A stretch of 29,367 nt of DNA from a virus, in IMG/VR virus record IMGVR_UViG_3300012931_000059, positions 1 to 29,367 of that record; one strand, 5' to 3'. The position numbers were made by a program, and so were the translations under genes. Shown one piece after another: positions 14,283 through 29,367 of the stretch; within the stretch, counting starts at the first letter, position 1, and every line of letters starts with the position of its first letter. The notes beneath the pieces were generated by a model, which had not been told where the DNA came from, did no database searches, and was given only the letters and a program-made list of their open reading frames with translations.

Positions 14283-14518
14283 TGGCAACAGCTACAGCTA
14301 GGGAGATATTAGAAAGCTACGAATGGGATTCCATGACATCCCAAGTGGAAGAAATTAGGAGACGCCTTGATTTGTTGAGTGAAACCATGGGGCGACGAAT
14401 CCACACCGATCAAGTGGTGGATGAGGCGCTAGTCAACGTGGGCATCTCTATAACCGCGATGCGATCTAAGATCACGCGCATAAAGGAAAAGTATCAATCG
14501 CATGACACCAAACGCTGA
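14282..14518 (+). CDS. Small helical protein of unknown function
   Basis: 78 aa, coupled to the helicase by TAATG and overlapping the next gene by 17 bp. It is mostly charged helix (VEEIRRRLDLLSETMGRRI) with no cysteines and no recognised domain. Its position suggests an accessory factor for the helicase or the following protein. Confidence 0.6.
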   Translation: MATATAREILESYEWDSMTSQVEEIRRRLDLLSETMGRRIHTDQVVDEALVNVGISITAMRSKITRIKEKYQSHDTKR

Positions 14519-15464
14519 AGTGAATTTCCTGGACCTTGGAATGTACACAGCCGGTGGTGGTCTTCCTGAGGGAGACTACGCACTGACGTTTAACGTACTG
14601 ATGTTCCAGGCAACCAAACAGAACGGGCAGACTGCTGGACCCCCCCGTCTGGGTGTAATGATTACGGCCCATTCCCTGACAGACCCAGCAGCAGAGCCCC
14701 GTGACCAGTTCTACTCCATGGGCAGCAATGCGGACAAAGTGTTCGCTCCCAACCCGGACACCGGCAAGGGTCTGGTACGGATTCCGGGTGCCACCGGAGG
14801 AACTCTCAACAATAGCACCAACTGGGCTATGCTGCTGAAGAGTCTGCACGACTCTGGTATGCCCTCTGGATTGGCCTCCAATGACCTGTCGGTGCTGGAT
14901 GGCATCCACGTCCACATGACCAACGTGCCGGAGCCTCAGGAGCGTGCCGGGTTCAAGAGTCAGACGGCGGAAGTCACCGAGGAGAGGAAGGCCGGGACGA
15001 TTGCCATTGTCACCGAGATCAAGGAAGACGGCAAGCCTTGGGAGGGGACTGGCGGGATTCCTGAGGCGGCTCCGGCGAAGGCCCCTGTTAAGGCCGGGAT
15101 CAAGGCTCCGGCCAAGGTGGCTCCGGCTGCGGCCAAGCCCGGAGTGAAACCTCCCGTCAAACCGGCTGTCAAGGCTCCGGCAAAGCCGGTCCCGGCTCCT
15201 GCGGCTGAGCCAGAAGCGCTAGACGAGGAAACTCTGGCGGCATACGCCACTGACGGGTTGGCCACAGTGTTAGGCCAGAATCCCAACGGTGTTGCCAAGT
15301 CGTCTTTGAGGGTCAACACCCTCAAGTACCTCACTGAGACGTACGGTGAGGAAGTCGCCAACTCGGTAGTTGAGACGTACTTCGCTGACGTTGCCTCTCT
15401 CAACTCCATCATCAACGGTATCGGCTTCAATGCGGCCGGCATCATGGTTAAACCGGTAGCCTAG
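14502..15464 (+). CDS. Candidate ssDNA-binding / replication accessory protein with Ala-Pro-Lys linker
   Basis: A 320-aa protein with AAAGGAAAAG about 10 nt before the ATG. The N-terminal ~190 residues form a compact domain (NFLDLGMYTAGGGLPEGDYALTF...). Residues about 190-235 are a flexible linker of repeated APAK, PVK and KAPAK units, and a ~90-residue C-terminal domain follows (AYATDGLATVLGQNPNGVAKSS...). The modular build and the place between helicase, exonuclease and Sak4-like genes suggest an ssDNA-binding or annealing role; no motif proves it. A strong terminator directly follows, so it may be made at a higher level than downstream genes. It holds a near-match of the palindrome at 14654. 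Confidence 0.55.
   Translation: MTPNAEVNFLDLGMYTAGGGLPEGDYALTFNVLMFQATKQNGQTAGPPRLGVMITAHSLTDPAAEPRDQFYSMGSNADKVFAPNPDTGKGLVRIPGATGGTLNNSTNWAMLLKSLHDSGMPSGLASNDLSVLDGIHVHMTNVPEPQERAGFKSQTAEVTEERKAGTIAIVTEIKEDGKPWEGTGGIPEAAPAKAPVKAGIKAPAKVAPAAAKPGVKPPVKPAVKAPAKPVPAPAAEPEALDEETLAAYATDGLATVLGQNPNGVAKSSLRVNTLKYLTETYGEEVANSVVETYFADVASLNSIINGIGFNAAGIMVKPVA
14654..14666. promoter_or_regulatory. Near-match of the 13-bp palindrome (1 mismatch)
   Basis: TGTAATGATTACG, the last base differing from the consensus. It lies midway between exact copies at 13428 and 15843. Confidence 0.45.
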
Positions 15465-26076: not shown

Positions 26077-26111
26077 AAAAAATCCCGGTTGCCATCTTTC
26101 AGGCAACCGGG
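26077..26111 (-). terminator. Intrinsic terminator of the leftward arm
   Basis: A perfect 10-bp stem, CCCGGTTGCC/GGCAACCGGG (26084-26093, 26102-26111), with an 8-nt loop. Read leftwards the stem is followed by ATTTTTT. There is no T-run in the rightward direction, so it mainly ends the leftward transcript. Confidence 0.85.
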
Positions 26112-26578: not shown

Positions 26579-27859
26579 CTATTTCTTGCTCTCGCCGGTG
26601 ATCTTGGCCAGAGCGGTGAACAACTGCTTATCCGTCGTGATCCCTGCGAAGCACGCCTTGAGCGCCTCGCCAATCTTCTGCACTTTCAGGTACCCTCCGG
26701 ACGGCAGGCACAGATCCTCCACCACCTTGCGCATTTCCCCCGCCTTCAGAGGGACATACTGACTCTCGACACCTTCCTCTGCCGCAGCCCGCTGGATATC
26801 AGCAGCATCCGGACCCTTCTTGCCAGTTTTCTTGTTCTTGCGGGCCTCGATCAGTTTCTTCGCCCGATCTGCCGCCGCTTCCGTGGTGCTCTGGACTTTC
26901 TTTTCCAGCTTGGCTACCGTGCCCTCAGCCTTGATAGCTGCCTTCTCGGCCTCCTTGGACTCCTTCTCGGCCTCCTGGTAGGCGGCAGTAGCTGCGTCCC
27001 TCTCTCCCTTCTCCTTGGCCAGTTTGGCCACACGGTATGCCTCTGCCGCCGCATCAGCCTTAGCCTTGCGTTCGGCTTCCGCCTTCTCGGCTTCCGCCCG
27101 TGCCGTTTCCAATTCAGTCTTGGCCGTCTCGACCTTGGTGACTACCGCTTGGGCCTTCTCCTCATTCTTCAGCAGCTTTGCTTCGTCGGCTTCCTCCCGA
27201 TCCACTTGAGCCATGCGGGCCGCTTCCGCCCGTTCCAGGATGGCTTCCCACTTGTCCCTGGGGGCCTTGTGGAGTTCATACGCAGTGCCGATGCCCACGA
27301 GACCCTGGTCAATCTTGGTCTGGATCTTCTTTGGAAAATCCAAGAATGACACCAGCATGTTGATGTGAGAGTTACTGGCGGGCTGAACCGCTGTACCCTT
27401 GCGGCCACCGACAACCGAGAAGGTAGCGCGGATTTCCTCACGGTTGATTCCTGCATCCAGCATGCGACGGATGACGACAGCCTTGTCCATCGGCGTGAGA
27501 TCCTTACGCCGAATGTTCTCCACAGACTGGCGCCGGAGCCGCTCAGCATCATCCACGCAGTTGTGGACAGTGGCTGGAATTAGGTACTCCCTACCTTCTT
27601 CCGCAACCTCTTCGTTCAGAGCAATGATCGCCGCTACCCGGTGGAACCCCACAGTGACACTGTGAGTCTTGCCGTCCTCGGTTGGCTCCAGGAGTTCCTC
27701 TACTTCGATGGGGGTGTTGATCCCCCCTTCTTGCCGGATGCTCTCCTTGAGTTCATCCACATGGTTCGTCTTGAGTGAGAACCGTGCGTTTTCACCCAGA
27801 AACAGTTGAGAAGCCGACAGCAGTACCACTGCGGGGGCTTCCGCTTCAAATTCGCTCAT
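26579..27859 (-). CDS. ParB/Spo0J-like DNA-binding protein with long Ala/Lys/Glu coiled coil
   Basis: 426 aa from the ATG at 27859 (GAGAGG upstream). The N-terminal ParB fold includes LGENARFSL, VDELKESIRQEGGINTPIEV and the box GFHRVAAI, where classical ParB has GERR. A helical DNA-binding region follows (about 105-200: RKDLTPMDKAVVIRRM, SHINMLVSFLDFPKKI). Residues about 215-350 are an Ala/Glu/Lys coiled coil, and the last ~70 form a separate helical domain. No ParA gene is in the window. It is a candidate binder of the dispersed palindrome; ParB-fold phage proteins can also serve other roles. A GTG at 27910 would add 17 residues. Confidence 0.72.
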   Translation of the reverse strand: MSEFEAEAPAVVLLSASQLFLGENARFSLKTNHVDELKESIRQEGGINTPIEVEELLEPTEDGKTHSVTVGFHRVAAIIALNEEVAEEGREYLIPATVHNCVDDAERLRRQSVENIRRKDLTPMDKAVVIRRMLDAGINREEIRATFSVVGGRKGTAVQPASNSHINMLVSFLDFPKKIQTKIDQGLVGIGTAYELHKAPRDKWEAILERAEAARMAQVDREEADEAKLLKNEEKAQAVVTKVETAKTELETARAEAEKAEAERKAKADAAAEAYRVAKLAKEKGERDAATAAYQEAEKESKEAEKAAIKAEGTVAKLEKKVQSTTEAAADRAKKLIEARKNKKTGKKGPDAADIQRAAAEEGVESQYVPLKAGEMRKVVEDLCLPSGGYLKVQKIGEALKACFAGITTDKQLFTALAKITGESKK

Positions 27860-27916
27860 AGATCCTCTCTTTTTGTTACGCCCCGAGTGGGGCTTAGGTT
27901 TGACAGCCACGACTCC

Positions 27917-28109: not shown

Positions 28110-28403
28110 TCAACCATTTGCCCCCCTTGATATCTTTGGAGTATCTCCATGCGATCTTGTACGATATTCTTCCATCTCCAACTTGGAGATGATTGACTGA
28201 AGCAGCCCAGTTATCCGCTGGTAGTCCGCCAGCATACAGTCAGTAGCCACCTTCCCAGTCGCCCTAATGGACTTCTGGATATCCGGGGGATACGGGTGGG
28301 CTCGTAACCCTGTCCAATAGCCAACTGTTTGGACAGACTGCTCTAGATGACTGAGTAGACAGTTAGCTCGATATTCTAGCTTTCTGATTTCAGGCATAGT
28401 CAT
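28110..28403 (-). CDS. Unknown helical protein, 97 aa
   Basis: It starts in an ATGA overlap with the upstream gene. Helical, with HLEQSVQTVGYW and ITGLLQSIISKLEMEEY. The DNA carries a 19-bp inverted repeat (CATCTCCAA/TTGGAGATG, 28173-28191) within the coding sequence. No family recognised. Confidence 0.6.
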   Translation of the reverse strand: MTMPEIRKLEYRANCLLSHLEQSVQTVGYWTGLRAHPYPPDIQKSIRATGKVATDCMLADYQRITGLLQSIISKLEMEEYRTRSHGDTPKISRGANG

Positions 28404-28774: not shown

Positions 28775-28984
28775 TTAGTCTTTTTCAGCAGTTGGGGTAG
28801 GCCACTTTACCCCGAAGACCTTGTGGATTGCCGCCGCGACATCAAGATATTGCTGCCGGTAAAAGCTCCACATTTGTGTACGGCTACGGTACCTGCCCTT
28901 GAGCCGATGAGCTTCAACAACCCAATCGGCATCGTAGGGTACCTGTACCTGTAGCCTGGAATGGACAAGTCTGTATCGAATCAT
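28775..28984 (-). CDS. Small HARP-like domain protein
   Basis: 69 aa. VPYDADWVVEAHRLKGRYRS then TQMWSF and a terminal helix (DVAAAIHKVFG) follow the pattern of small phage proteins related to the HARP-type domain (Y-D-x-x-x-V...W-x-F...). GGAG ribosome-binding site. An exact palindrome lies directly upstream of that site. Function unknown. Confidence 0.5.
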   Translation of the reverse strand: MIRYRLVHSRLQVQVPYDADWVVEAHRLKGRYRSRTQMWSFYRQQYLDVAAAIHKVFGVKWPTPTAEKD

Positions 28985-29008: not shown

Positions 29009-29182
29009 CTATCTATCAGGCCACTCAACACCAGTCAACCTACCAGTCATATTGGTGTACAAACTACTGATGCCATGGGTAAGTTGTGAGAGTGTGGACA
29101 ACAGGGCTAGAGCTAGGACAGCCACAACCAAGGAGTATTCGACTAGATCCTGCCCGGTGTTATCATTCCATAGATTCCGCAT
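29009..29182 (-). CDS. Flp-type (type IVb) pilin-like protein, 57 aa
   Basis: A short leftward gene with GGTGGTGAGAT before its ATG. Residues 10-30 have the Flp prepilin signature: Gly10 followed by QDLVEYSLVVAVLALALLS. This gives cleavage after Gly, Glu at +5 and Tyr at +6, then one hydrophobic helix. The length matches Flp pilins (about 50-70 aa). Such proteins are normally exported subunits of Tad/Flp adhesive pili, processed by a TadV/FppA-type peptidase. No other tad gene is present. In a phage context it could be a decoy, a superinfection-exclusion factor or a captured host gene. It sits 13 bp after the Ala-repeat gene and 24 bp before the HARP-like gene. Confidence 0.7.
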   Translation of the reverse strand: MRNLWNDNTGQDLVEYSLVVAVLALALLSTLSQLTHGISSLYTNMTGRLTGVEWPDR

Positions 29183-29195
29183 ATCTCACCACCTA

Positions 29196-29367
29196 CTAAT
29201 ATGCTAGTGCCTGCTCTGCCAATGCCTGAAAATTAATGGGAGCAATGGCGGCGCGGGCGGCGTAGGCGGCGGTGTCGGCGGCGGCGGTGTCGGCGTAGGT
29301 GGCGGCGTCGGCGGCGTAGGCGGCGGCGTAGGCGGCGGCGGCGCGGGCGGCGGCGGCGCGGGCGTCG
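29196..29367 (-). CDS. C-terminal part of an alanine-repeat protein, 5' truncated by the window edge
   Basis: Leftward frame, open from the window edge to TAG at 29196, 56 visible residues. The repeats have the form (A/D/R/T/Y)-A-A with GCC-dominated codons (TAC, GAC, CGC and ACC at the variable positions), then a unique tail, INFQALAEQALAY. Similar (Y/D/R)AA-repeat proteins occur in phages and bacteria without known function. The pattern predicts one long alanine-rich helix, reminiscent of type I antifreeze helices, though function cannot be inferred. The unique tail and a single uninterrupted frame support coding over simple repeat DNA. Confidence 0.6.
   Translation of the reverse strand, partial: DARAAAARAAAAYAAAYAADAATYADTAAADTAAYAARAAIAPINFQALAEQALAY
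29246..29367. repeat. GGC-rich 3-bp/6-bp repeat tract
   Basis: Imperfect GGC/GTA/GTC/GCG triplets running to the window end, corresponding to the alanine-repeat coding region on the minus strand. Prone to slippage in-frame, so repeat number may vary. Confidence 0.85.

Follow-up and report, generated by a model that had tools for sequence, protein, structure and literature searches.

A Flp-type prepilin gene in the accessory arm of a tailed phage: a candidate counterfeit subunit of the host Tad pilus

Tad pilins and phage proteins directed at pili

The gene described here lies in the window (the whole stretch of DNA that we analysed, a linear virus record of 29,367 bp), and its closest described relatives are the major pilins of Flp/Tad systems (PF04964), represented by Caulobacter PilA (8u1k/8u2b) and the Flp of Bryobacterales. 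It shares with them a short leader ending in Gly, E5 and Y6, a lone hydrophobic helix and 47 mature residues, whereas it differs in being phage-encoded, without detected cpa/tad genes, and in having N22, the hydrophobic residue 29 and S41 replaced and a charged tail. In Caulobacter, the core hydrogen bonds of the Tad pilus are made by the residues equivalent to E5 and Y6, the C terminus of PilA points outward and phage PhiCb5 binds that end (PMC11067988). PilA of the non-host strain NA1000, to which PhiCb5 does not adsorb, has N43R (mature residue 29) among four changes (PMC11067988). Furthermore, a pilA stop60L mutant, in which PilA is extended at its C terminus, was obtained as resistant to PhiCb5 and does not retract its pili (PMC13170226); that PilA gains 55 residues, whereas the mature window pilin keeps the host length of 47 residues.

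Phage proteins that inactivate type IV pili and thereby confer superinfection exclusion are known from other systems. Specifically, Aqs1 of DMS3, Gp05 of D3112 and Gp21 of vB_Pae_QDWS block or alter the pilus receptor, which is also the outcome proposed here, but they are described in the accessible sections of a superinfection-exclusion review as inactivating the PilB assembly ATPase or lowering pilin/PilB expression, whereas the agent here would be a pilin copy and the system Tad (PMC11436027). Oac of phage D3, from the same sections, is likewise carried by a phage as an accessory gene and alters the receptor of the host (PMC11436027), although by enzymatic modification and not by the structural decoy proposed here. 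Pilus motor inhibitors and receptor modifiers are listed in those sections, and pilin copies are absent from them (PMC11436027). The initial annotation of the window knew of no established phage role for a Flp pilin; in agreement with this, a phage-encoded Flp pilin was not found in the full text of open-licence papers, nor was receptor exclusion by a dominant-negative pilin found described there as a phage strategy.

The pilin gene and its homology to Flp pilins

The pilin gene belongs to a minus-strand arm with the features given below, and tape measure, helicase and polymerase genes are among the phage genes in the remainder of the window.

29196 to 29366, minus strand: Ala-rich AAYAA-repeat gene, truncated by the contig end so that its C-terminal part is present (open reading frame; upstream operon neighbour)
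29186 to 29194 (29194-29186), minus strand: Shine-Dalgarno-like AGGTGGTGA, 3 nt before the pilin ATG
29009 to 29182, minus strand: Flp-type prepilin gene, 57 aa (open reading frame; PF04964 and lineage-profile matches; codon score; AlphaFold2 helix)
29153 to 29182, minus strand: leader peptide MRNLWNDNTG of the prepilin, with cleavage predicted after Gly10 (aligned with host tad-locus Flps, which share the G/QDLVEY site)
29012 to 29152, minus strand: mature pilin, 47 residues, with QDLVEY core, helix and altered tail LTGVEWPDR (position-wise comparison with 79 host Flps)
28775 to 28984, minus strand: HARP-like phage gene, 69 aa (phrog_24323, E 5.5e-6; 44% identical homologue in phage G258)
28400 to 28726, minus strand: 108-aa open reading frame of the same operon, no Pfam or significant PHROG match
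28110 to 28403, minus strand: 97-aa open reading frame of the same operon, no Pfam or PHROG match
26579 to 27910, minus strand: ParB-like phage gene of the same-strand module (phrog_1033, E 8e-14; 37-42% identical homologues in seven related phage contigs)
26131 to 26520, minus strand: 129-aa open reading frame, the last gene of the minus-strand arm
26084 to 26111, minus strand: intrinsic terminator-like hairpin closing the arm (10-bp stem with 8 GC pairs, then a T run)

The 57-aa frame is present in the open reading frame list of the window and translates as MRNLWNDNTGQDLVEYSLVVAVLALALLSTLSQLTHGISSLYTNMTGRLTGVEWPDR, with the ATG at 29182 as the sole in-frame start downstream of the preceding stop. 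The initial annotation had located the frame correctly, without naming the strand, which is minus. Its prepilin signature is seen in the translation as MRNLWNDNTG/QDLVEY, and the ribosome-binding site that it mentioned corresponds to AGGTGGTGA, 3 nt from the ATG, which matches AGGAGGTGA at 8 of 9 positions. The codon score of the frame was +0.12 per codon, compared with means of 0.23 for coding and -0.48 for non-coding frames; only 1% of non-coding frames attain this score, and the codon usage resembles that of the phage's own genes.

A PF04964 search, which had been proposed with the initial annotation, did return a match to the pilin frame (18.5 bits, E 0.0018), but this fell below the Pfam gathering cut-off of 32.2 bits. 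A genuine host pilin from a Bryobacter tad locus also stayed below the cut-off with 29.3 bits, indicating that the cut-off is too strict for the Bryobacterales Flp lineage, while the copy in phage contig G006 cleared it with 35.4 bits. From these three scores, the window pilin is filed as a diverged relative of PF04964 rather than as a Pfam-called member.

We then used a profile of the lineage itself. A seven-row alignment of viral-contig copies served as the query of a genome contig scan, which returned 294 relatives, and the best 80 of the 294 were nearly all from Acidobacteriota, mostly Solibacteraceae/Bryobacteraceae. Homologues of cpaB and/or cpaC adjoin flp in 73 of these best 80 loci, and a single locus, L114, lacks all four usual neighbours that were looked for. 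Leaving out this locus gave a lineage profile of 79 Acidobacteriota (Bryobacterales) tad-locus Flps, a host set biased to the closest relatives of the query and containing zero phage sequences. The window frame scored about 69 bits with this profile (69.1 bits, E about 2e-19), whereas the best of 20,000 shuffles of the pilin reached 13.2 bits, and it was among the few matches in 19,747 open reading frames from phage contigs. The pilin-like gene of the initial annotation thus has a sub-threshold PF04964 match as well as a strong lineage-profile match. A chance open reading frame was rejected on the shuffles and the codon score.

In a PDB search, moreover, a mixed-alignment profile matched the solved structures of Tad pilins, 8u1k and 8u2b; a single-sequence phmmer search of the PDB with the window pilin gave only noise, and an NCBIfam search gave no Flp match, even for a host pilin. 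AlphaFold2 predicted a single helix at residues 7-50 (mean pLDDT 81) without a globular domain, in accordance with the one hydrophobic helix of the initial annotation. The window pilin is 40-49% identical to the aligned host pilins. Judged from the pilin, the host of the window phage is probably a soil member of the Acidobacteriota (Bryobacterales), so that a phage-borne pilin would serve as a host clue for uncultivated viruses. Acidobacteriota are abundant soil bacteria, and their phages are little explored.

The stop of the Ala-rich gene lies 13 nt before the pilin ATG, and the HARP-like gene follows next downstream after a gap of 24 nt; the pilin gene is phage-borne, in a tight minus-strand operon of a tailed phage. 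Host contamination was ruled out by the gene neighbours and by the sequence distance from host pilins. Flp-type (Tad, type IVb) prepilin homology and phage-borne location, taken jointly, are close to certain. CpaB, CpaC, prepilin peptidase and T2SSE were not detected over the cut-off in the window record, a fragment beyond whose ends other Tad genes could lie. Likewise, a prepilin peptidase was not found in G000, G004 or G006, and no T2SSE ATPase scored over the cut-off there.

Distribution of the pilin among phages

The helicase relatives of the window phage comprise 11 contigs at 48-62% identity and further, more distant ones. Together with the window, contigs L237-L247 form a phage group of up to about 70 kb with a common helicase and, in several members, a ParB-like gene; no close named relative of this group was found in INPHARED, and a PolA-based scan gave no relatives of the window phage. 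Seven helicase-related contigs carry the ParB-like homologue, and none of the 16 helicase-related records searched has a Flp gene. A 14-bit match in one contig (G257) was rejected as a short frame without the prepilin motif. In G258, Ala-rich genes, the HARP-like gene and the ParB-like gene stand in the same order as in the window, without the pilin. Since relatives keep the ParB-/HARP-like module without it, the pilin is optional cargo in a conserved phage arm, and the accessory arm of the initial annotation can be described as a variable slot. Note that this phage group repeatedly has proteins with Ala/Tyr/Asp repeats (AAYAAD) in its minus-strand arm, at 29196-29366 of the window and in G258 (L268).

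Scanning IMG/VR for GQDLVEY frames yielded nine further contigs with Flp-like open reading frames. Two of these, G006 and G004, carry Bryobacterales-type pilins, which reached 77-80 and 64-65 bits, respectively, with the lineage profile; among the other seven, six scored 34-44 bits and one had no score. A fourth copy comes from an Acidobacteriia MAG, where it lies on the 16.5-kb contig L235; this contig is phage-like, with clamp loader, dNMP kinase and exonuclease genes, and the MAG has a canonical Flp of its own in a tad locus. Homologous frames are therefore intact in three other phage contigs; in the window phage's own relatives, where the initial annotation had proposed to look, the gene is absent, not broken. 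It was also not found in 46 other terminase-related phage records, and tblastn of INPHARED with the window, host and G006 pilins returned nothing even at E 10. One window phage protein, searched without a positive control against 200 genomes of the MAG's order, gave no prophage relatives.

G006 and G004 are syntenic relatives with terminases about 50% identical, and the pilin occupies different sites in them, which suggests separate gains or movement of the gene. Specifically, the G006 gene lies between a glycosyltransferase and a methyltransferase, at the edge of a glycosyltransferase/epimerase/cupin cassette of G006/G004, whereas the G004 gene lies between head-morphogenesis/endolysin-like genes and a head protease. 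The two phages have in common (L017:4907-9819; L018:13107-18780) family-2 glycosyltransferases, an RmlD-like epimerase fused to a methyltransferase, and a cupin, and the cassette possibly serves surface or virion glycosylation tied to the same receptor biology. In a tree of 62 columns, a single clade of the four phage copies was not rejected (AU p 0.45), and in a larger tree the window and G006 pilins paired with support of 97/93 on long branches.

Residues altered in the phage pilins and their possible role

We compared the four phage copies (window, G006, G004 and L235) position by position with the 79 host pilins. QDLVEY, including E5 and Y6, is kept in all four, although ascertainment accounts for part of this conservation, since the few phage copies were gathered by their GQDLVEY motif. 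On the other hand, N22, present in 79/79 host pilins, is replaced in every phage copy, and residue 29, hydrophobic in all 79, is S, S, G and R in the four. S41 (78/79 host pilins) is G in each phage copy. The tail after mature residue 38 has 3, 4, 3 and 1 charged residues in the phage copies and 0 in each of the 79 host pilins.

That the core is retained while the outward part has changed is consistent with a decoy that co-assembles and keeps rival phages out. As Tad machinery was not detected in the available phage sequence, the leader of the window pilin would be cleaved after Gly10 by the host prepilin peptidase, and the processed pilin would join the host's inner-membrane pilin pool. With the core assembly residues E5 and Y6 kept, it may then co-assemble with host pilin in the Tad pilus or jam the pilus. 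The altered outward face (mature residue 29 and the charged C-terminal tail) might spoil retraction, or the binding face for rival pilus-dependent phages, and with this counterfeit pilin the phage would gain superinfection exclusion. We infer the host identity, leader cleavage, co-assembly and receptor effect, and put at about 0.4 the probability that the phage pilin is incorporated into the host Tad pilus or jams it, with a changed receptor face and superinfection exclusion as the outcome, from sequence and from the Caulobacter analogy, with four copies of the Bryobacterales pilin type as its basis. Similar altered copies in several viruses suggest that phages may tamper with the host surface by a counterfeit pilus part. 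It is a more doubtful generalization that Acidobacteriota phages repeatedly recruit a Tad pilin and remodel it into a dominant-negative subunit that would co-assemble through E5/Y6 and leave the pilus disabled or re-faced. If the decoy reading is true, the remodelled pilin is a structural decoy, unlike the anti-pilus proteins in the accessible sections of the review, which inactivate the motor or lower pilin expression; it would also hint at Tad pili as phage receptors in Acidobacteriota, and the protein would offer a tool for jamming Tad pili.

Changes at host-invariant residues could also come from fast drift of a useless gene. The pilin would then be a captured host gene in passage, or else a repurposed small membrane protein whose helix acts outside the Tad system, perhaps as a lysis or membrane factor. 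We consider this rather unlikely: the sporadic presence (absent from the 46 terminase-related and 16 helicase-related records), the long branches and the endolysin-like peptidase and head gene adjoining the G004 copy fit it, but the intact frame, Shine-Dalgarno site, coding-like codons and compact operon do not, nor do the occurrence of one pilin type across three phage backgrounds and the retention of E5 and Y6, which is in part an effect of the search motif.

Somewhat less likely still is a signalling role, in which unassembled phage pilin in the inner membrane enlarges the pilin pool and shifts surface sensing/c-di-GMP, attachment or biofilm formation to the phage's advantage. For Bradyrhizobium, it was proposed that Flp which accumulates without export stimulates c-di-GMP synthesis and biofilm formation (PMC12918737), and the diverged helix residues (N22, residue 29) could block polymerisation. 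However, the changed, charged tail would be unneeded for such a role, no signalling gene was seen near the pilin, and the precedent comes from other phyla only.

That the phage supplies a working receptor, with its pilin replacing or supplementing the host's so that infected cells stay piliated or attach and aid phage spread, agrees with the kept core architecture but is quite improbable, given that a host pilin is already there and that the consistent loss of host-invariant residues speaks against a faithful substitute. Finally, it is hardly credible that the pilin is not phage-borne, whether as a piece of host DNA attached to a viral contig or as a chance frame: the gene does lie <360 bases from the end of the contig, and host flanks can occur in IMG/VR contigs, but identity to the aligned host pilins is just 40-49%, none of the tad genes that accompany nearly every host flp is present, phage genes lie downstream with an Ala-rich gene upstream as in G258, and shuffles reached only 13.2 bits.

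Other observations concern the viral contigs beyond the decoy reading. The L235 contig also carries a patatin-like gene (phrog_25573, 14384-15295). More distant Flp-like frames on L002 and L019-L023, which scored 34-44 bits and have phage-type neighbours by family search in L021 and L023 only, are possibly further independent captures. In addition, over 30 viral contigs (L024-L059) have Flp pilins of a GATAIEY type, two of them in tandem in L050, and from their sequences these IMG/VR frames look like ordinary Flps of other bacteria.
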